A DNA stretch of 48,190 nucleotides from a virus, in the IMG/VR virus record IMGVR_UViG_3300045110_000015, positions 1 to 48,190 of that record; one strand, given 5' to 3'. Shown one piece after another: positions 37,811 to 48,190 of this stretch. Position 1 is the stretch's first letter. Each line of letters begins with the position of its first letter. The notes below the pieces were generated by a model that saw only the letters and a program-made list of their open reading frames with translations, ran no database searches and was not told the DNA's origin. A program made the translations under genes and the position numbers.

Positions 37811-38577
37811 TACGCTGCAACCTGTAGGAGTTGTTTACCAACGTACTCTGTGTACGCCGGCGGGATAGCCTCGTTCAGCTCGCGCTTCTTCCTAGCCCAC
37901 GGGATCTGCATTGCATCCTTAGCCGCGTCAAACCGGCAAGTACCGCCACCCACGACAGTCACGTAATCCTTCCACTGATCCAACTTCCCGTAGTGGTTGT
38001 GGCGCTTGTTCCACGTGACACACAACGGATGCTCCCATCGTGACATGTGTGGAGGGGCTACCAGTGGAACATCGGATTCAAAGAGCCTATGCCTAATCAC
38101 CCTGAGATTGTGGGACTCGTGAAAATAAACCCCGCACAGGAGGATGGTCTGTTCTTTGATTAGTGGCGACCACATCACGTTCTCAATGATGTAGGGCTTG
38201 CCAGTTTGTTGGAGCAAGTCACGTACTACTGGTAACAGGTCAGGGTGCAAATGTCGATTCCCGTTTTGGTCTGCCGTAATGCTATAGTGCTGGCAGGGTG
38301 GACTTGCATGGATCACGGTAAAGTCGCTCAGCTTGTAGCTGCGCTTTTTACTTTTACCAGTGATAGGGTGGTTAGGCGTGATAGTCTCGGTGGGATCTGT
38401 GAGCAGCCGCCGTAGTGTGGCAGGCGCATCATGCAGGACGAGTGCAGAATACGGGTAGTTTGGTTGAAGGTAACGGTCTACTCCAATCACGTCAAAACCC
38501 GCATCGTGGTAACCCTTTGCAGCCCCACCAACACCACAGAACAGGTCAAGCAAGAGGGGCCTATTTGTATCAGCCAC
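37810..38577 (-). CDS. C5 cytosine DNA methyltransferase
   Basis: 255 residues with motif I DLFCGVGG (11-18), motif IV SPPCQ with Cys95 as nucleophile, motif VI ENV (132-134) and RHRLFES (162-169). It transfers a methyl group to C5 of cytosine. It is short for the family, so the target-recognition part is small. No partner nuclease is visible, so it is probably an orphan enzyme protecting phage DNA. It sits between terminase and portal genes with stop/start overlaps on both sides. Target unknown. Confidence 0.88.
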   Translation of the reverse strand: MADTNRPLLLDLFCGVGGAAKGYHDAGFDVIGVDRYLQPNYPYSALVLHDAPATLRRLLTDPTETITPNHPITGKSKKRSYKLSDFTVIHASPPCQHYSITADQNGNRHLHPDLLPVVRDLLQQTGKPYIIENVMWSPLIKEQTILLCGVYFHESHNLRVIRHRLFESDVPLVAPPHMSRWEHPLCVTWNKRHNHYGKLDQWKDYVTVVGGGTCRFDAAKDAMQIPWARKKRELNEAIPPAYTEYVGKQLLQVAA

Positions 38578-40079
38578 TACAGCCTGACCCTAAAGACATC
38601 TTCTGAATCCAGCGTCATGCTCTGATTCAGAGTAAAGAAGTCCTCAGATTCACTACCAGTGTACATCTCGCCATAGATGTCAGCAACGGACGTACCGGCG
38701 CCATCTACGAACCAAGGCCCAATGAAGTAGCGCAATGCATCACAAGCGTGGTCGTCGATCTTGTGCTGGATATTGCCATCACCTGCCAACTCGTTGAGGT
38801 CGTACTTGGCGTTCTTACCAACCTCTTTCACGTGCAGGTTGTTCATCTGCCGGATGAGGTTAGTGCAGGACTTGTGGACGCGAATCTTTGGTGGCCTGTC
38901 TGACAGCATACGCTTGATCTGTTCGACAGCCAGCTTCCACCTGACATCTTGTGAAGCTGGGAACTTGAACACCTGACCTAGAATAGCCGCCTCATCTGCG
39001 CCACGTGGGTCACCCCAACATGAATCAATGGTGTAGCCGTTGGGATTCAACCTGTCACGCAAGTGGTAGGCATGTTCAAGGGTAGACTGGTGTGCCATGT
39101 AGTACTCGCGCCATACAAAGCACGTGTTGGAGCGAGGGTCGATTTGGATATCTAGCGCGACAAAAGGATTGTTAAATCCGTAGTCCATCGCTAGATGATT
39201 TGTATACGCGGGGTTGTAGCGCTCGTTCAGGGAATCCTCTTCGTGTCCGTAGACGTGTGTATCTTCGCTCCACTCTTCGTAGATGCTTCCTGTGAGGGCT
39301 GTGAACTTGGCCCCGTACTCCTGGTCGAACCAGATGGGGCTGACGGTTTTCTCAACACGTAGGATTTCAGGATCATCCCTACCACCTGGATACCTGACTG
39401 AGTTCTCCCATGTTGGAAACTGCCAACTCCTGTAGTCTTGCGCTGTGTTGTACTTCGTGGCGTTCTCTCTATTGAGAGTTTGATTTGGGGTTGTCGGGGG
39501 CGCGATCGTATGTAACTGTCCCAGCATGTACAACCCGTGGAACCAGTTGTAACCCTGTGGTGTAGAGGGAAAGTCGCATGATCCGCGCAAATCGGAGAGG
39601 GCTGGTTCGATGTATTGTTCCCACGTAGCTCGGTTGTGTTTAGCGGCCTCACTCATGATGACGTGGGACAAACCCTCTCCTAGTAGGGAGTCTGGATTGT
39701 CGGCACTCACTACCATGATGGTACTTTGCCAAGGGGTCTTGATGTACATATCCCCCTGGTGTTGACTGTAAGCCTTCTTGCAATATCGCAGAAGATCGAG
39801 TTTTTGGTAGTCATTCCAGACAACTCTAAACTCTTTCTCCCCAATTCGGTAACTTGTGCCGACGATCCAGTTCCAACTGTCAGGTATGAAGCTTTTGAAC
39901 GTCATACGGTGGCCTGCTGCTTGGCTTTTACCCCAGCGCCGACCACAACACGGAGCATTGAACCGTGCTTTGCTGTACAAGTAATCTGTTTGGCCCGTAG
40001 AATGAGGCTTGAAGCCTACTTTCTCGTATAGGGCTTTAGCAGATATACCTGGTTCTGCTCCGCTTACTGCGTCTGCCAT
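38577..40079 (-). CDS. Terminase large subunit
   Basis: 500 residues from ATG 40079; TTG 40103, inside the upstream frame, is possible, and neither has a good ribosome-binding site. Walker A is CGRRWGKSQ at about residues 45-53 and Walker B SHVIMSEAA near 155. The nuclease domain shows LAMDYGFNNP and DHACDALRYF. It is the DNA-packaging motor and cleaves concatemers. The GRRWGKS form is typical of phage terminases. Confidence 0.9.
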   Translation of the reverse strand: MADAVSGAEPGISAKALYEKVGFKPHSTGQTDYLYSKARFNAPCCGRRWGKSQAAGHRMTFKSFIPDSWNWIVGTSYRIGEKEFRVVWNDYQKLDLLRYCKKAYSQHQGDMYIKTPWQSTIMVVSADNPDSLLGEGLSHVIMSEAAKHNRATWEQYIEPALSDLRGSCDFPSTPQGYNWFHGLYMLGQLHTIAPPTTPNQTLNRENATKYNTAQDYRSWQFPTWENSVRYPGGRDDPEILRVEKTVSPIWFDQEYGAKFTALTGSIYEEWSEDTHVYGHEEDSLNERYNPAYTNHLAMDYGFNNPFVALDIQIDPRSNTCFVWREYYMAHQSTLEHAYHLRDRLNPNGYTIDSCWGDPRGADEAAILGQVFKFPASQDVRWKLAVEQIKRMLSDRPPKIRVHKSCTNLIRQMNNLHVKEVGKNAKYDLNELAGDGNIQHKIDDHACDALRYFIGPWFVDGAGTSVADIYGEMYTGSESEDFFTLNQSMTLDSEDVFRVRL

Positions 40080-40093
40080 GAAGAGGGGTGTTT

Positions 40094-40222
40094 CTAGCCC
40101 CAACCGTTGAAGTACGCCAGGACAACAAACACCGCGATCACGACAAGCGCGATGTCACTGAGGCCAACTACGAGGCTGAACTTCACAGCGGGTGACGCTG
40201 GTGTCACAACAGGGGTAGTCAC
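40094..40222 (-). CDS. Small membrane protein upstream of terminase
   Basis: 42 codons from GTG overlapping the previous stop (GTGA). After a short polar N-terminus there is one membrane helix (FSLVVGLSDIALVVIAVFVV). Its role is unknown. A membrane protein at the head of a packaging operon is unusual. Confidence 0.6.
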   Translation of the reverse strand: MTTPVVTPASPAVKFSLVVGLSDIALVVIAVFVVLAYFNGWG

Positions 40223-42189: not shown

Positions 42190-42249
42190 GTGATGAGATT
42201 GTTAGGCGAGATTTCATACTATGCTTACGTTTGGGATTCGGGGGGTAGG

Positions 42250-42296
42250 CGTACCTTGGAGTGTGCAGGGCGAGAGGATACGCCCTGGAGGGTACG
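42250..42296. other. Nested hairpin
   Basis: CGTACC/GGTACG (42250-42255 and 42291-42296) encloses CAGGGCG/CGCCCTG (42266-42272 and 42281-42287). It lies between two direct-repeat groups and may be part of the same functional site. Confidence 0.5.
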
Positions 42297-42377: not shown

Positions 42378-42403
42378 TAGGTGGCCGGCTACCTAGCCTG
42401 CCC

Positions 42404-42429
42404 GATACACGACATTTTTGTCGTGAATC
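42404..42429. other. Hairpin with T loop beside iterons
   Basis: GAT-A-CACGACA pairs with TGTCGTG-A-ATC around a TTTT loop. Both arms carry the GTCGTG core of the iterons. The AT-rich loop could be a melting or nicking site, or the whole may act as a terminator for leftward transcription. Confidence 0.5.
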
Positions 42430-42458
42430 GGATGTCGTGAAATGAGATTCGCGACTTC

Positions 42459-42478
42459 ACACACTCCTTACATTTGAG
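42459..42478 (+). promoter_or_regulatory. Promoter-like repeat R1
   Basis: First of five copies of a shared 20-base block (ACACACTCCTTACATTTGAG). The -35-like TTGAGT is conserved, but no -10 lies at the usual 17-base distance, so this copy is the weakest. It precedes the 39-aa membrane protein gene. Confidence 0.45.
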
Positions 42479-42562
42479 TGTACAGGCCGCCGGCTACCTT
42501 GAATAGTGCAAGCCCGAACAAACGCCCCCCGCAAGTAAAGGCAAGCACAGGAGGTGAAAAGT

Positions 42563-42682
42563 TTGGCTTGGATCGCAAGCCCCACGTTTGTATGGGCGTG
42601 GGTTGGATTCTGGCTGCCAGTAACACTGGCAGTAGGGATCTACGCGCAAGTTGGTATCTGGCGCAAGCGCGACAGACACTAA
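42563..42682 (+). CDS. 39-aa small membrane protein
   Basis: TTG start a few bases after AGGAGGTG. The product has one long hydrophobic segment (FVWAWVGFWLPVTLAVGIYA) and a basic C-terminus (WRKRDRH). Single-helix phage peptides of this type often target host membrane functions, but nothing specific can be said. The stop overlaps repeat R2. Confidence 0.6.
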   Translation: MAWIASPTFVWAWVGFWLPVTLAVGIYAQVGIWRKRDRH

Positions 42683-42725
42683 CACACTCCATACATTTCA
42701 GTCGCAAGCTGACTGGCACTATGGA
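42682..42725 (+). promoter_or_regulatory. Promoter-like repeat R2
   Basis: The shared block ACACACTCCATACATTTCAG is followed by 17 bases and TATGGA. It would drive transcription of the structured element at 42751. Confidence 0.5.
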
Positions 42726-42750
42726 GTGTAGTAAGGCAAGCGCAAGGCGC

Positions 42751-42858
42751 TTGTTAGGTGCAAGACAACACGCTGTGATAACCGCGTGCGTCCACAGATG
42801 GCCGGCCACATAAGGCTGGGATACGTGAGATAGCGCAGCCCCGTGTTGCACCTAACAA
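42751..42858 (+). ncRNA. Long-stem RNA element A
   Basis: A perfect 13-bp stem (42751-42763 with 42846-42858) encloses about 80 nt with inner hairpins CACGC/GCGTG and GGCTG/CAGCC. No open frame with a ribosome-binding site is present. The right arm runs into promoter-like repeat R3. Known RNA class not recognised. Confidence 0.45.
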
Positions 42859-42898
42859 ACTCCTTACGTTTGAGATGGAGTGAGTAAGGCACTATGTA
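42855..42898 (+). promoter_or_regulatory. Promoter-like repeat R3
   Basis: The block ACAAACTCCTTACGTTTGAG is followed by -35-like TTGAGA, 17 bases, and TATGTA. The downstream GTTAGTAAG is shared with R4. Confidence 0.55.
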
Positions 42899-42947
42899 GT
42901 TAGTAAGCAAGTGAGAGCGTGCAAAGCATGCTTTTCAGGCATGGCGC

Positions 42948-43114
42948 TTGTAAACTGCAAGTCAAAATCCACGTAATGCCCTGTAAGGCGCCAATCGGGT
43001 TGTGGTCTGAAGTCTGTGATAAATCGGTAGCCTTCCTCGGGGACGGGTGAAGCCCCCATAAACGGACAAAATACCGTAAGGCACAGGTGAGCAGATAAGA
43101 CTTGCAGTTTACAA
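42948..43114 (+). ncRNA. Long-stem RNA element B
   Basis: A perfect 16-bp stem (42948-42963 with 43099-43114) encloses about 135 nt rich in short hairpins. No credible gene lies inside. It is bounded by R3 and R4, and its right arm overlaps the start of R4. It could be a stable small RNA transcribed from R3. Confidence 0.45.
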
Positions 43115-43154
43115 ACTCCATACACTTGAAAAGTGTGGAGTAAGGCACTATGTA
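43111..43154 (+). promoter_or_regulatory. Promoter-like repeat R4
   Basis: The block ACAAACTCCATACACTTGAA has -35-like TTGAAA, a 17-base spacer and TATGTA, placed 24 bases before a strong ribosome-binding site and the 43178 gene. It is the best candidate promoter of the family. Confidence 0.6.
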
Positions 43155-43177
43155 GTTAGTAGGAAGGAGGTGAGGTA

Positions 43178-43435
43178 ATGGGACTCACAGTAAGTCAGAT
43201 AAGTGATCTGATGGCGCCGGTCAAGCATAGGGCGCCTAAGACGAACGCCCTGGTAAGGGTTGCGGGTGAAGCAAGACTTGAGAATCAACAAGTCAAGCCC
43301 GCTCAGTTCGGTCGCTTCGAGGGCAAGCAGGGTACGAAGCGCAGATCCCGCAAGGGACTGGTCAGAACGATGCCCAATGGCTACGTGTTCTACAACGGCG
43401 TCACAGACACAGAAGTGGTCGCGTACCGGGCGTAA
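43178..43435 (+). CDS. Basic 85-aa protein
   Basis: ATG preceded by AAGGAGGTGAGG. The N-terminus GLTVSQISDLMA is similar to that of the 46995 gene (GLTPEQIKGLMA). The rest is strongly basic (GKQGTKRRSRKG) with an aromatic end (NGYVFYNG). A nucleic-acid or host-protein binder is plausible. It is the first gene after R4. No family recognised. Confidence 0.7.
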   Translation: MGLTVSQISDLMAPVKHRAPKTNALVRVAGEARLENQQVKPAQFGRFEGKQGTKRRSRKGLVRTMPNGYVFYNGVTDTEVVAYRA

Positions 43436-43451
43436 GCCAGCTCTGGTACGA

Positions 43452-43492
43452 ACACCACCTTAGAACAGTCGAACAGATTGTAAAGGTGGTGT
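43452..43492 (+). terminator. Hairpin after the basic protein gene
   Basis: ACACCACCTT/AAGGTGGTGT (43452-43461 and 43483-43492) with a 21-nt loop, 16 bases after the stop. No T run follows, so termination is uncertain. Confidence 0.45.
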
Positions 43493-43514
43493 AAGGAACG
43501 ATCCAATCCACGTG

Positions 43515-43543
43515 CCAAAATCCCTGCAAATGGGGGGTTTTGG
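43515..43543 (+). terminator. Second hairpin, G/C-rich with T-rich arm
   Basis: CCAAAA-T-CCC pairs with GGG-TTTTGG around a short loop, followed by TGTTGTC. It probably ends transcription before the LexA-type boxes. The stretch 43544-43660 contains only short TAG-rich sequence and no gene. Confidence 0.5.
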
Positions 43544-43666
43544 TGTTGTCAAGATTGGCACTTCTGAAACTCTGAAAGTCTGCTCCCCCGGAAAAAGGAG
43601 ATAACTAGAAATAGCTATATATAACTAAGTAGTAGTTGTAGTAAGTGTAGTATGAAAACCGGGCGA

Positions 43667-43743
43667 TCGAACATACGTTCGCGTTGCAGAGGCGCTGTCT
43701 AGAAAATCTAAGTGGCCCCTGCGCAAGGCGAACACACGTTCGC
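43667..43743 (+). promoter_or_regulatory. Two LexA-type (SOS) boxes around a promoter
   Basis: TCGAAC-ATAC-GTTCGC (43667-43682) and GCGAAC-ACAC-GTTCGC (43728-43743) both match the GAAC-N4-GTTC LexA site of actinobacteria and Bacillus. Between them lie TTGCAG and, 17 bases later, TCTAAG, a plausible promoter. The arrangement would let host LexA repress the downstream small gene and RNA until DNA damage. Confidence 0.65.
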
Positions 43744-43787
43744 TTGTCTTGACGCAGTTGACTTCAATGGAAGGAAGGAGTAAAATC

Positions 43788-43883
43788 GTGTCTCAGAAGA
43801 AGATCAAAGCGGCGATCCAACATCCCAAGCAGAGCAATCTCGGCTCGCTTGGTGTGGCACTTCTCGCCGCAGCCAAGAAGTAG
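43788..43883 (+). CDS. 31-aa basic peptide
   Basis: GTG preceded by AAGGAAGGAG. Lys-rich N-terminus (SQKKIKAAIQHPK) and an Ala/Leu-rich helix (LGVALLAAAKK). It may be amphipathic. It lies directly downstream of the two LexA-type boxes, so it may be damage-regulated. No family recognised. Confidence 0.6.
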   Translation: MSQKKIKAAIQHPKQSNLGSLGVALLAAAKK

Positions 43884-44042
43884 CAAACCCGTAAGGGTTT
43901 GTAAAGCACACGGTTGTATTCTACCAAGACCCAAGATATCCAGTATCCCTATGGGTAACGCTGGTTACGCTTGGTGAGGATGGCGCGGCATGAATACCCG
44001 CGTGGGTTCAAATCCCACAATGGCCGTGTGCTTTACAAACCC
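43884..44042 (+). ncRNA. Oversized tRNA-like RNA 1 with competing hairpin
   Basis: A perfect 19-bp stem (43895-43913 with 44024-44042) closes a region with a canonical T-arm, GTGGG-TTCAAAT-CCCAC (44002-44018). A CGCGG/CCGCG hairpin lies directly before the T-arm. The space before the T-arm is about 88 nt, too long for a standard tRNA, and no normal D or anticodon arm is clear. The left arm can also pair with CAAACCC at 43884-43890 around a GTAA loop, so two folds compete. Class unknown. Confidence 0.5.
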
Positions 44043-44101
44043 TTGCTATCTTGCATAGGGTCGCTTTACAAACCAACAACAAGAAGGAGAACTAAACAAA
44101 C

Positions 44102-44497
44102 ATGCCCCTGCTTCATCCGTCGCAGCGCAAGTCCTTCACGATCACGAAGGACACCGCTGTTTGGCTTGCCAGCCAGCTCGCAAATGGCCGCAAGCTTCGT
44201 TTCCAGTCTTACGCGAATCGCAACTGGGTCGCCAAGATTGCGCGCACTCGGTATGGTGTCGATACCAAGTCGTATGTCACGAAGGATCAGCTTTTCGATC
44301 CGTCGTCTACGGTGGAAGGCTTCGATATCGAGCCGGGTAGCTCGCACTACATGAACCTCTACTGCGCCGAGATGGTCGCTATCTCACAGCCGGCGTTCAT
44401 CAAGCCCGAGCCTGCTACCACGCCTACCACTACTTACATGAACGGTAACATCGTTCGTGTGCCCACGTACAACCGGCGCGAGGATTACGTCCGCTAG
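44102..44497 (+). CDS. Hypothetical 131-aa protein
   Basis: ATG about 10 bases after AAGGAG. A strand-helix mix (SFTITKDTAVWLASQLANG) is followed by an aromatic-rich C-terminus. Basic N-terminal half. No motif recognised; the neighbours are other small early-type genes. Confidence 0.65.
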   Translation: MPLLHPSQRKSFTITKDTAVWLASQLANGRKLRFQSYANRNWVAKIARTRYGVDTKSYVTKDQLFDPSSTVEGFDIEPGSSHYMNLYCAEMVAISQPAFIKPEPATTPTTTYMNGNIVRVPTYNRREDYVR

Positions 44498-44521
44498 AAA
44501 CCACATGTAAGGAGGAAGTGA

Positions 44522-44683
44522 ATGTCTGTCATCGTCTGGGATATGAACGTGCAAGCTTACATGACTGTCCATTGGGGCAGCCGTGGGTCTTGTGAGAACT
44601 ACATCAAGACCCGCAAGCTTGTAGGTGACAGGCGTACCTTCCTGCTTCGCCCCGCAACATTCATCAACGAGCCGCTTTACTAG
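44522..44683 (+). CDS. Hypothetical 53-aa protein
   Basis: ATG preceded by TAAGGAGGAAGTGA. The product is a compact mix of strand and basic residues (MNVQAYMTVHWGSRG, then KTRKLVGDRRTFLL). Its stop codon lies in the left arm of the long inverted repeat at 44681. Function unknown. Confidence 0.6.
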   Translation: MSVIVWDMNVQAYMTVHWGSRGSCENYIKTRKLVGDRRTFLLRPATFINEPLY

Positions 44684-44814
44684 GCTCGTCAAGCTAGTCT
44701 GACTTCCAACGTGAAAGGCGATTAGTTCGGGCCAAGCTCATCACGAGAGCCTCTGGTACTCCCCTATGAAAGCATACTCAACGTAATCGGCCTCAGGCTA
44801 GCTTGACAAGCCTA
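44681..44814 (+). ncRNA. Long-stem RNA element C
   Basis: A 22-bp stem with two G-T pairs (44681-44702 with 44793-44814) encloses 90 nt with no gene. It could be a terminator, a processing signal or an independent small RNA. It is not followed by a T run. Confidence 0.5.
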
Positions 44815-44852
44815 GTGAGCACCGCTAGGTGTCAACAAAGGAGGGTTTACAA

Positions 44853-44969
44853 ATGTACGTCCACAACGACGCGCAGGCCATCTACACGCGCGGTGTCCTC
44901 AAGGGCAACATCAAGAACTGGCGCATGGCGTGGGCCATCCGGCAGGCCAAGCGCAACAACAAGGCATAG
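44853..44969 (+). CDS. 38-aa basic peptide
   Basis: ATG preceded by AAAGGAGGG. The C-terminal half is a basic helix (NWRMAWAIRQAKRNNKA). No cysteine or known motif. It may bind nucleic acid or a host factor. Confidence 0.55.
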   Translation: MYVHNDAQAIYTRGVLKGNIKNWRMAWAIRQAKRNNKA

Positions 44970-44975
44970 CCAACC

Positions 44976-45146
44976 ATGAGAGAGAAGCCCTGCAAGGTGA
45001 TGCACAAGGTGGGTACTGGCTATACCTGCAACATCTACAAGTCCGGTGCTGTCTTTATCAAGGACAAGCACTCAACTCTCTCACACAGGCAATACACTTC
45101 CGCAACGGAAGCACAAGCCCAGCTACGCAAGTCTGGCTGGCGGTAA
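44976..45146 (+). CDS. Hypothetical 56-aa protein
   Basis: ATG six bases after the previous stop, with only a weak AAGG. Strand-rich product (KVGTGYTCNIYKSGAVFIKD) with two cysteines and a basic end. Likely coupled to the upstream gene. Confidence 0.55.
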   Translation: MREKPCKVMHKVGTGYTCNIYKSGAVFIKDKHSTLSHRQYTSATEAQAQLRKSGWR

Positions 45147-45173
45147 CAAATGCAGCACAGTAGGGCACAGTAA

Positions 45174-45220
45174 GGGCCATGAGATTTCTTAGCTAAGTTG
45201 ACAACTTGGCTATCATGCCC
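45174..45220 (+). other. Hairpin competing with tRNA-like RNA 2
   Basis: GGGC-C-ATGA pairs with TCATGCCC (8 bp, one bulge) around an inner AAGTTG-A-CAACTT hairpin. The last four bases of its right arm are the first bases of the tRNA-like acceptor strand, so the two folds exclude each other. Confidence 0.5.
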
Positions 45221-45347
45221 CCATAGCTCAAGGATAGAGCGCCGTTGGTAGCGGAGCTAGTCACTCTCATAAATCCAAGGTCAGTCTGACTAACTGACTA
45301 CTCGACTGTTTCGAGCGGAGATTCGGGTTTGAATCCCGATGGGGGCT
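45217..45347 (+). ncRNA. Oversized tRNA-like RNA 2
   Basis: Ends and D-arm look like a real tRNA: acceptor GCCCCCA/TGGGGGC (45217-45223 and 45340-45346), TA then GCTC-AAGGATA-GAGC (45226-45240), T-arm TCGGG-TTTGAAT-CCCGA (45323-45339; T in place of C56). The stretch between D- and T-arms is 82 nt instead of about 23-35. It has hairpins CCG-TTGGTAG-CGG, GTCAGT/ACTGAC and CTCGA/TCGAG. A GGT (Thr) anticodon is possible in the first but its stem is only 3 bp. It may be a tRNA with an insertion or a degenerate tRNA. Confidence 0.55.
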
Positions 45348-45362
45348 GCTTACTGTCACAAC

Positions 45363-45410
45363 GAGGCGTCAGAGAACCTGCCATACCAACGGTAACGGCA
45401 GCCACGCCTA
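45363..45410 (+). other. Nested hairpin after tRNA-like RNA 2
   Basis: AGGCGT/ACGCCT (45364-45369 and 45404-45409) encloses CTGCC/GGCAG (45378-45382 and 45397-45401), with TACC/GGTA innermost. It may be a terminator or processing site; no T run follows. Confidence 0.4.
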
Positions 45411-45453
45411 CCTACTGAGCGCAAAATCAAACACAACGAAAGGAGTGGCAAGC

Positions 45454-45636
45454 ATGGTGTTCAAGGTCTACACAGACTTCGCATACGACAGCGAGCGTTA
45501 CCTGATGGCTTACCACTTCGATCGTATGTGGAAGGACAGATATAAGCCTCACAACAGGACAAGCCTGCGTCAGAACATCGCAGCGCAGCGTAAGGAGAAG
45601 GATGTCTCTCTCACAACAGAGCACTACCTGTCCTAA
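45454..45636 (+). CDS. Hypothetical 60-aa protein
   Basis: ATG nine bases after AAAGGAG; an in-frame GTG three codons earlier is too close to the ribosome-binding site. The product is rich in aromatic and basic residues (RYLMAYHFDRMWKDRYK). It overlaps the next gene by 35 nt. Family unknown. Confidence 0.55.
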   Translation: MVFKVYTDFAYDSERYLMAYHFDRMWKDRYKPHNRTSLRQNIAAQRKEKDVSLTTEHYLS

Positions 45637-45817
45637 CCTGCGACACTTGCGGCTGGAGCGTTACAACGGAAAGCTCGCACAAGTGCCCAACGCGATTGGT
45701 GACATCGTTTGCATGGGCTGTGGCGCAGATCACACAAGCCCAATCCACCGAACCGCTAGAGAGATTGCTGCTGACATAAGGCAGCACCTAATCCGACAAG
45801 GAGTGAACCTCAAGTGA
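45602..45817 (+). CDS. Hypothetical 71-aa protein with Cys pair
   Basis: ATG after AAGGAGAAGG. The product has DIVCMGCGADH, a possible metal site with nearby His, and a helical basic C-terminus (AREIAADIRQHLIRQG). Its stop overlaps the next GTG (GTGA). Function unknown. Confidence 0.55.
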   Translation: MSLSQQSTTCPNLRHLRLERYNGKLAQVPNAIGDIVCMGCGADHTSPIHRTAREIAADIRQHLIRQGVNLK

Positions 45818-46056
45818 AAGACAGCTACAACGCAAACAGTGGTATCCAAGTGTTTGACACGCCTGACCAGATTGCGGCGTTTCAGCAGCTAGCACAGTAC
45901 CACGCCTGTAAGCTGCAACTGCTAGGGATGCGGCATAGCAGCGGTAGAAGCATTATCGCGCATGTCAAGGCTACCTATGGCTTCAAGGGTAGCAACCAGT
46001 CAGTGGTCGATCAGTTCAAGCAGCACCTCATCAACGAAGGGATCATCAAGGCATGA
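45814..46056 (+). CDS. Hypothetical 80-aa helical protein
   Basis: GTG overlaps the upstream stop. It resembles a small helical DNA-binding-like domain (DQIAAFQQLAQYHACKL, then VVDQFKQHLINEGI). The last helix is similar in style to that of the preceding gene (DIRQHLIRQGVNLK versus FKQHLINEGIIKA), suggesting a shared origin. Its own stop overlaps the next ATG. Confidence 0.6.
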   Translation: MKDSYNANSGIQVFDTPDQIAAFQQLAQYHACKLQLLGMRHSSGRSIIAHVKATYGFKGSNQSVVDQFKQHLINEGIIKA

Positions 46057-46577
46057 CTGAATCAGGGCCAGTACCCAACGACAAGTGGTACAAGATCGGT
46101 GGTGTCCTAGCCGTTCATGGCTACTGCCACAGCAACCTCAAGACTGGCTGGTATCGGTGGCCTGACTTGACTCCCGAGAAGATCGCGTATCTGTCACAAC
46201 TGGTGATCTTCGAGCCTAAGATGGAAGTGGAGGCTATCGGTTACGACCCTGATACCGGAGGCTTCACTCTCGTCAACAAGCTTGACCCTCGTTACGATAG
46301 TCTCAAGGCTAAGTTCAATGAGGCCAATCGTGAGAGGGTCGAGTGGGCTAAGCGTGAATCTGAGAGGCGTCAACTGAACAAGGAACTAGGTGAAATCGTC
46401 ATGGCGCAGAAGAAGAAGAATCGTGAGAATGAGATCCTGCGCCAAGCTGCCACGATCATCTTCGCCAGGACACAAGAGAATCCTGGTAGCGTGGACATCA
46501 AGTTCAAGCCTGGTAGACCTGAGATGGTCAAGCTCACAAGCTTCATCCACGACGGGACTGGTGATACCAGTGAATGA
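46053..46577 (+). CDS. Hypothetical 174-aa protein with coiled coil
   Basis: ATG overlaps the upstream stop. Residues 1-75 are compact (WYKIGGVLAVHGYCHS), and residues 85-135 form a charged helix or coiled coil (NRERVEWAKRESERRQLNKE). The C-terminus is mixed. Possibly a regulatory or scaffold-type early protein. No family recognised. Confidence 0.6.
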   Translation: MTESGPVPNDKWYKIGGVLAVHGYCHSNLKTGWYRWPDLTPEKIAYLSQLVIFEPKMEVEAIGYDPDTGGFTLVNKLDPRYDSLKAKFNEANRERVEWAKRESERRQLNKELGEIVMAQKKKNRENEILRQAATIIFARTQENPGSVDIKFKPGRPEMVKLTSFIHDGTGDTSE

Positions 46578-46743
46578 CAAGCTGTGGTATGCGGAGCAGA
46601 TCGCAAAGCTGAGTGATAAGCCTTGTGGTCTACCAATGGAGGGTAGAGAGACTGTCGCTAAGTGCGATCCTCCTGTGCGGCCTTTTGAGCGCCGGTGCTC
46701 CATGTGTAACAGGCTTGTATGGAAGTCTGACACAGGTGAATAA
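46561..46743 (+). CDS. 60-aa Cys-rich protein
   Basis: GTG 46561 is chosen (GTG 46570 is an alternative), overlapping the end of the previous gene. Cysteines in CGLP, AKCDP and CSMCN could form a small zinc site near the C-terminus (RRCSMCNRLVW). It directly precedes the tRNA gene. Confidence 0.6.
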   Translation: MIPVNDKLWYAEQIAKLSDKPCGLPMEGRETVAKCDPPVRPFERRCSMCNRLVWKSDTGE

Positions 46744-46746
46744 CAC

Positions 46747-46832
46747 GGGAGTCTGACAGAACTGGATAATGTAGCGGGCTGTAACCCCGCTGTCGTGGCT
46801 AACACGTGGAGGTTCAAATCCTCCGGCTCCCA
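46747..46832 (+). tRNA. tRNA-Tyr (GTA)
   Basis: All parts fit a class II tRNA: acceptor GGGAGTC/GGCTCCC (46747-46753 and 46825-46831), anticodon arm GCGGG-CTGTAAC-CCCGC with anticodon GTA, long variable arm CGTG-GCTAA-CACG, T-arm GGAGG-TTCAAAT-CCTCC and discriminator A. There is no encoded CCA. It would decode TAC and TAT codons. Confidence 0.93.
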
Positions 46833-46833
46833 T

Positions 46834-46904
46834 TCAAGCCTACCACGCCCTATATGGTCACAAAACAAACGAGCGTGACCGGACTACGGGAACGGTAGGC
46901 TTGA
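46834..46904 (+). terminator. Terminator-like long stem after tRNA-Tyr
   Basis: An 11-bp stem TCAAGCCTACC/GGTAGGCTTGA (46834-46844 and 46894-46904) encloses GGTCAC/GTGACC (46856-46861 and 46875-46880), followed by TCCTTTTA. It probably ends the tRNA transcript just before repeat R5. Confidence 0.6.
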
Positions 46905-46911
46905 TCCTTTT

Positions 46912-46955
46912 ACAAATTCCTTACATCTCAGCGTCCACGTGTCGTGTACTCTGTA
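46912..46955 (+). promoter_or_regulatory. Promoter-like repeat R5
   Basis: The block ACAAATTCCTTACATCTCAG, then 17 bases after CTCAGC, then TCTGTA, followed by GATAGTAAGG as in R3 and R4. It lies about 40 bases before the ATG of the 46995 gene. Confidence 0.55.
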
Positions 46956-46994: not shown

Positions 46995-47345
46995 ATGGGA
47001 CTTACCCCTGAACAGATCAAGGGTCTGATGGCGAAGAAGCGCACCAAGGGCATCTACGACGAGAGGCTGATGGAAGTCTACGAGTCGGACGAGGCTGGTG
47101 TGGACGTCGCTGAGACTTGGCCGGTTGACTTCTCTGAGAAGTCTGCTACCACTCTCTATCAGGGCTTTAGCAACGCTGCTAAGAGGCTTGAGATGGAGGA
47201 TGCCGTTGACATCGTGAACCGCGATGGTCACGTGTTCATCCTTATCAAGACTCGCGTGGCACTTGTTCTCGCTGAGACTACCGCTAACGGTACTGTCGAG
47301 GTCGAGGACGAGGCTGAGGCTGCTATCGAGGCCGAACTGGTCTAG
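46995..47345 (+). CDS. Hypothetical 116-aa acidic protein
   Basis: The ATG follows AAAGGTGGTG. The N-terminus GLTPEQIKGLMAKKR matches the start of the 43178 gene; both genes follow a promoter-like repeat. Residues 50-95 look like a small alpha/beta domain (YQGFSNAAKRLEM, HVFILIKTRVALVLA) and the tail is acidic. Function unknown. Confidence 0.7.
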   Translation: MGLTPEQIKGLMAKKRTKGIYDERLMEVYESDEAGVDVAETWPVDFSEKSATTLYQGFSNAAKRLEMEDAVDIVNRDGHVFILIKTRVALVLAETTANGTVEVEDEAEAAIEAELV

Positions 47346-47351
47346 TACAAC

Positions 47352-47404
47352 GAGCAAGCTAGTCAATCATATGCCTAAGCGCAAGGTGATTGACTAGCTT
47401 GCTC
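47352..47404 (+). terminator. Perfect 18-bp stem, terminator-like
   Basis: GAGCAAGCTAGTCAATCA pairs perfectly with its complement (47352-47369 and 47387-47404) around a 17-nt loop, seven bases after the stop of the 46995 gene. No T run follows, so it may be an RNase III-type processing site instead. Confidence 0.55.
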
Positions 47405-47887: not shown

Positions 47888-48190
47888 TGGCATCCCCCGC
47901 GCAAGTCAAGTACATGACTGAACTGGCAGAGAAGCGCGACTTGAATAGTGAGCTAGCTTCTCCTGAACTGCGAGCATGGCTGAACACGCCGCTTGCATTG
48001 GAGAACGCGACTAACCAGGAAGTCAATCTTATCCTGGCTGCTCTCAAGTTGCTGCCTCTCAAGGTTGGCGAGCCTGCACAGTTGAAAGCACCAAACCCCG
48101 CACAGGTGGAGTTGGCGGAAGCTGAGCAGAAGGTGGATAAGGGACATTACTTCATTGTCGATCCTTTCGATGGTGAGGAAAAGTTCTTCA
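47887..48190 (+). CDS. Hypothetical protein (3' partial)
   Basis: The ATG overlaps the upstream stop; the frame runs off the window end. The visible 101 residues have a helical N-terminus (SPAQVKYMTELAEKRDL) and an Ala/Pro/Glu linker before GHYFIVDPFDGEEKFF. I associate the pattern with an uncharacterised actinophage family but cannot name it. Confidence 0.65.
   Translation, partial: MASPAQVKYMTELAEKRDLNSELASPELRAWLNTPLALENATNQEVNLILAALKLLPLKVGEPAQLKAPNPAQVELAEAEQKVDKGHYFIVDPFDGEEKFF

Follow-up and report, generated by a model that had tools for sequence, protein, structure and literature searches.

Repeated promoter-like modules with a conserved block in place of a -35 element in the early region of a phage with a likely actinobacterial host

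The early region of this phage contains five copies of a 20-base block, and the question is whether they mark a family of early promoters and, if so, what reads them. The window, a linear viral contig of 48,190 nt (IMGVR_UViG_3300045110_000015), represents 81% of the complete genome. The complete genome comes from a second contig of this phage (L006/L014), which matches the window at 100% identity over 17.9 kb; the 127-bp terminal repeat shared by its ends gives a circular map of 59,197 bp. The structural genes point leftward, starting from the terminase (38577-40103, - strand), and rightward early and replication genes begin at about 42.4 kb. The closest named terminases are those of Arthrobacter, Microbacterium, and similar phages (about 30% identity), and an actinobacterial host is therefore likely. 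No relative was found among public phages by nucleotide search, nor was the phage terminase found in bacterial genomes. The heptamer GCACAGG occurred 43 times in the 59 kb without strand bias, for example at window positions 48092-48106, where genome length alone predicts about 7. It often lay within aaaccccGCACAGGgggtg, a 15-mer found 16 times at ≤3 mismatches in the whole genome versus 1.5 expected.

The five blocks start at 42459, 42682, 42855, 43111, and 46912. As the first-pass annotation had described, all match one consensus and point the same way, rightward on the + strand, in non-coding DNA. The exact sequence ACAMAYTCCWTAC occurred 5 times in the window, each time at one of the blocks. 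Matches with ≤1 mismatch numbered 5 versus 0.22 expected (20-kb stretch of the same phage), and none of 100 shuffles reached 5. A scan of the remaining genome had been advised, and the record covering all 59,197 bp held just these five at ≤1 mismatch. A sixth, degenerate copy (c0) at 42222 shares both its -10 (TACCTT) and its spacing with copy 1. The AGTAAGG-type sequence also said to be shared was common to copies 2 through 5, at positions that differ between copies. Modules c3 and c4 are 80% identical over 60 nt, so that modules within one genome are partly duplicates. The modules, each with its block, its block-to-(-10) distance, and its -10, and the genes behind them were as follows:

42222-42257, + strand: degenerate module c0; TGCTTACGTTTGG, 17 nt, -10 TACCTT (42252-42257)
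42459-42500, + strand: module c1; ACACACTCCTTACATTTGA, 17 nt, -10 TACCTT (42495-42500); heads the small ORF
42554-42682, + strand: small ORF behind c1; TTG at 42563, strong ribosome binding site AGGAGGTG; hydrophobic product
42682-42722, + strand: module c2; ACACACTCCATACATTTCA, 16 nt, -10 CACTAT (42717-42722); heads structured RNA 1
42855-42895, + strand: module c3; ACAAACTCCTTACGTTTGA, 16 nt, -10 CACTAT (42890-42895); heads structured RNA 2
43111-43151, + strand: module c4; ACAAACTCCATACACTTGA, 16 nt, -10 CACTAT (43146-43151); heads gene A
43178-43435, + strand: gene A; 85-aa product without a known family; 14 related phages carry a homolog
46912-46952, + strand: module c5; ACAAATTCCTTACATCTCA, 16 nt, -10 TACTCT (46947-46952); heads gene B
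46995-47345, + strand: gene B, 116 aa; homologs in about ten related phages

Six more modules, with the block upstream of gene A, were carried by two distant relatives: three copies in the L023 phage, and two plus one reversed in the L048 phage. In the latter, two divergently oriented blocks are separated by 3 bp, each has an outward YANNNT, and the leftward one heads an ATG, so that the pair would open divergent transcription units; this arrangement favours an element that would act directionally at the DNA level. When 2.9 million viral contigs were searched for the block plus a -10, 46 distinct stretches were returned, and modules clustered in this phage and the L023 and L048 phages and in no other contig. 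The remaining single matches looked like chance, most having no second module nearby. The block was also considered as a host regulon. In 84,980 bacterial and archaeal genomes, its long form gave ten single matches in unrelated taxa, with about 15 expected by chance (an estimate); the matches were thus at chance number, and we called neither a host regulon nor a host. Because the block is confined to a small phage group and its bacterial matches are those of chance, its reader is probably phage-encoded.

The first-pass annotation had proposed -10 hexamers TATGGA, TATGTA, TATGTA, and TCTGTA exactly 17 nt after TTCAGT, TTGAGA, TTGAAA, and CTCAGC. These were present at that distance in copies 2 through 5, and copy 1 lacked one. 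Alignment of the window modules with those of the relatives moved the -10 three bases upstream, to a better-conserved hexamer present in all copies, copy 1 included. YANNNT was found 13-18 nt after the block in 12/12 modules of the three phages against a background of about 4% (3.9%, the chance of the slightly stricter YACNNT within a 5-nt range); given the relatedness of the three phages, this reflects conservation rather than twelve independent events. The -10s were CACAGT, TACTGT, and CACAGT in the L023 phage and CACCGT, TACAGT, and TACTCT in the L048 phage, and the spacers between block and -10 had diverged. Among mapped promoters of M. smegmatis, 79% have ANNNT and 63% of these TANNNT, the -10 used by mycobacterial SigA (PMC6448022). 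The window modules have a -10 of this kind, as canonical actinobacterial SigA promoters do. The distance from block to -10 was 16-17 nt in the window, about 17 in the L023 phage, and 13-14 in the L048 phage. Loss of the 17-base spacing in related phages had been named beforehand as evidence against the proposal, and it counts against the exact spacing, not against the promoter idea itself. Such variation between phages (13-14, 16, 17) would be unusual for a plain -35.

We then compared these promoters with those of relatives that lack the block. Eight leaders of gene A and gene B homologs in such relatives carry near-perfect TTGACA/TTGACT-17-TANNNT (each 0/300 shuffles), and this phage itself has four TTGACA-17-TANNNT sites in its later early region. 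At the window's gene A and gene B, no TTGACA-like -35 was found about 17 nt before the -10, and the block is there instead; the best -35 matched 3/6 positions (p 0.61 and 0.74) versus 5-6/6 in the eight leaders. The block therefore stands where a -35 normally stands. This contrast is our main evidence, and it suggests that the block is a promoter part that is read otherwise than through standard sigma contacts.

Each block had also been said to follow a stable RNA stem, and a fold does end at or close before all five (z = -6.6, -6.2, -3.6 to -3.9, -3.3, and -6.6, in order). Fold windows of 80 nt do not capture the long-range stems at c3 and c4. The folds were as follows:

42402-42455, + strand: two hairpins directly before c1; z -6.6
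42600-42684, + strand: hairpin pair immediately upstream of c2 that overlaps the small ORF at its 3' end; z -6.2
42737-42857, + strand: structured RNA 1, between c2 and c3; long arms close just before c3; z -3.9
42941-43121, + strand: structured RNA 2, between c3 and c4; arms of 23 nt with 91% complementarity; extends into the start of c4; z -3.3
46834-46904, + strand: hairpin before c5; z -6.6

No convincing gene was found in the c2-c3 and c3-c4 intervals, which contain only structured RNA. The L023 phage has the same layout of module, closed stem of 100 nt, and module. An alignment of RNA 1, RNA 2, and the L023 RNA hints at a family, three sequences being too few for more. Rfam returned two tRNAs only over the region and nothing credible for the L023 RNA. 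A stable fold preceded one of the three L023 modules (z -7.7) and L048b (z -5.7), and none was clear before L023a or L023b. The canonical gene A promoter of the related L032 phage has a perfect hairpin of 18 bp upstream of it. The stems could themselves be the functional elements rather than the blocks. No U-run followed the stems, and classic termination is therefore not implied.

Other structured elements were observed in the early region. A tRNA-like gene at 45217-45347, which scored 43.8 bits with the Rfam tRNA model and was not reported by ARAGORN, has an anticodon arm enlarged by about 71 bases and is possibly a tRNA with an intron or insertion. At 43893-44044, a perfect 21-bp stem closes a body with a tRNA-like T-arm (GTGGGTTCAAATCCCAC) that was not recognised as a tRNA. 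Early-operon intergenic regions contain a stem at 44679-44816 (24-nt arms at 92%, z -4.7) and a perfect 18-bp hairpin at 47352-47404. Two perfect CGAAC-N4-GTTCG boxes of the LexA/SOS-box type lie between gene A and the next gene (43668-43681 and 43729-43742), and the equivalent position in L017, L021, L025, L031, and others retains one or two of them; these boxes suggest host SOS control of a neighbouring promoter.

A sequence family with this placement and orientation, restricted to one phage group and with no TTGACA -35, was what had to be explained. We think it reasonably probable that the modules are co-regulated early promoters with a SigA-type -10, in which the -35 is replaced by the putative site of a dedicated factor. 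The YANNNT -10 would be used by the host polymerase holoenzyme containing the main sigma factor, and the block (ACAMAYTCCWTACATYTSA), 13-19 bp long and spanning about -47 to -29, would take over the -35 contact. A dedicated DNA-binding factor, probably phage-encoded, would recognise the block and either recruit polymerase or repress. We infer the start of transcription at the modules, the binding of a factor, and the choice between activation and repression from sequence. Each stable stem may insulate its unit from the preceding one, and the units would lead in turn to the small ORF, the two structured RNAs, gene A, and gene B. The phage thus probably switches these early genes as a set through such a factor. 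The first-pass idea of a phage-specific early promoter or operator family, with an RNA stem ahead of every copy, is in this respect still the best reading; its hexamers and its exact spacing of 17 are not retained.

These observations allow more than one scenario. The block could be a repressor operator comparable to the L5 operators and stoperators, at which a monomeric or dimeric phage repressor shuts early promoters or stops elongation. We find this doubtful, if credible: an asymmetric site of the 13-bp type in several copies, oriented with transcription and overlapping the -35, fits an operator, but neither Pfam nor PHROGs recognised a repressor or integrase among the early and neighbouring ORFs (gene B gave a weakly winged-helix-like model), and the copies are few with none elsewhere in the genome. 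An L5-type stoperator set would show the consensus GGTGGMTGTCAAG in 20 or more copies; this consensus was not enriched here (6 matches at ≤2 mismatches versus 2.9 expected). That the modules are ordinary SigA promoters built on TTGAGA-17-TATGTA, with the remaining block incidental, is unlikely. TTGAGA and TTGAAA do resemble TTGACA, and the spacing is exactly 17 in copies 2 through 5. However, TATGTA and TATGGA have no T at position 6, and the pair fails a sigma-70 scan; copy 1 and the L023 and L048 modules do not fit; the conserved sequence reaches 10-12 bases upstream of the hexamer; and the SigA-type promoters of this phage group are near-consensus.

The block could also act in RNA, pairing with its complement (ACTCC..GGAGT) as a hairpin in read-through transcripts and serving as an antitermination or processing signal. 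Arms pair with differing sequences in c2 and L048b, and partly in c1, c3, and c4, and stable RNA stems adjoin. Long inverted arms were clear in only 2/12 modules (c2 and L048b), however, and absent in L023a-c, L048a, L048L, and c0; the pooled pairing signal was weak (Fisher p 0.0096, or about 0.01), and the divergent back-to-back L048 blocks and the relation of the block to a -10 also speak against it. We largely rejected this hairpin and regard an RNA-level role as quite improbable. A recent duplication without function would explain the identity of c3 and c4 over 60 nt and their related upstream arms, but conservation is confined to two boxes, block and -10, around diverged spacers, and recurs in phages whose terminases are 60-67% identical, which makes such an origin highly improbable.

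If the co-regulated promoter reading is correct, the factor might be sought among the phage's own genes. None of the 49 early and neighbouring ORFs was recognised as a sigma factor, an RNA polymerase, or a repressor. The model of gene B (mean pLDDT 80) had weak matches to TubR/ArsR-type proteins, weakly suggesting a winged-helix-like fold; fold matches did not rise above background (best values: Foldseek E 0.02, Z 6.6), and tblastn of public phages with gene B found no relative. Gene B is only a lead as the block factor because it also occurs in relatives without the block. The gene A model was too poor to use, and the small ORF behind c1 possibly encodes an early membrane peptide. It is a speculative extension, to which we give little weight, that an undescribed phage specificity factor, perhaps gene B, replaces -35 recognition at a dedicated set of promoters, and that this set drives tandem cassettes of promoter plus structured RNA, the RNAs acting early in infection.

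Actinobacteriophage promoters are poorly defined. Homologous genes with textbook TTGACA promoters on one side and a block-containing, -35-less promoter on the other offer a natural comparison, which makes the replacement of the -35 directly testable. The locus also points to early structured RNAs described by no RNA family.

The nearest known kind is the ESAS (extended start-associated sequence) of Cluster K mycobacteriophages, also found in Cluster EF Microbacterium phages (PMC3203893, PMC11373665, PMC7302621). Like the window modules, ESAS are repeated intergenic modules, specific to a phage group and located in the non-structural region, that have been interpreted as SigA-like promoters extended by further conserved sequence, and Adephagia has a long RNA stem before one ESAS. 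In Adephagia, the -35 and -10 hexamers of an ESAS are separated by 17-18 bp and accompanied by an inverted repeat of 15-17 bp, and an SAS is usually present at the ribosome site (PMC3203893, PMC11373665, PMC7302621). In contrast, the window modules have another consensus and no TTGACA-type -35, SAS, or general inverted repeat; flanking imperfect 17-bp inverted repeats are not a feature of the set, and the SAS GGGATAGGAGCCC expected at the start codon had 3 matches at ≤2 mismatches versus 0.8 expected, none near the modules. By its sequence, the window set is a repeated, putative phage promoter family and not an ESAS. Cluster A operators and stoperators (PMC9283540) are likewise short asymmetric sites with orientation matched to transcription, some in promoters. 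The window sites differ from stoperators in being promoter-associated only, in number (5-6 copies), in sequence, and in that no repressor homolog was recognised. At class II activator-dependent promoters, the site of the factor overlaps the -35 and the host -10 is used. Although the window-type spacing varies between phages and the factor here is putative, the two have in common a good -10, a missing -35, and a conserved block over the -35 region.
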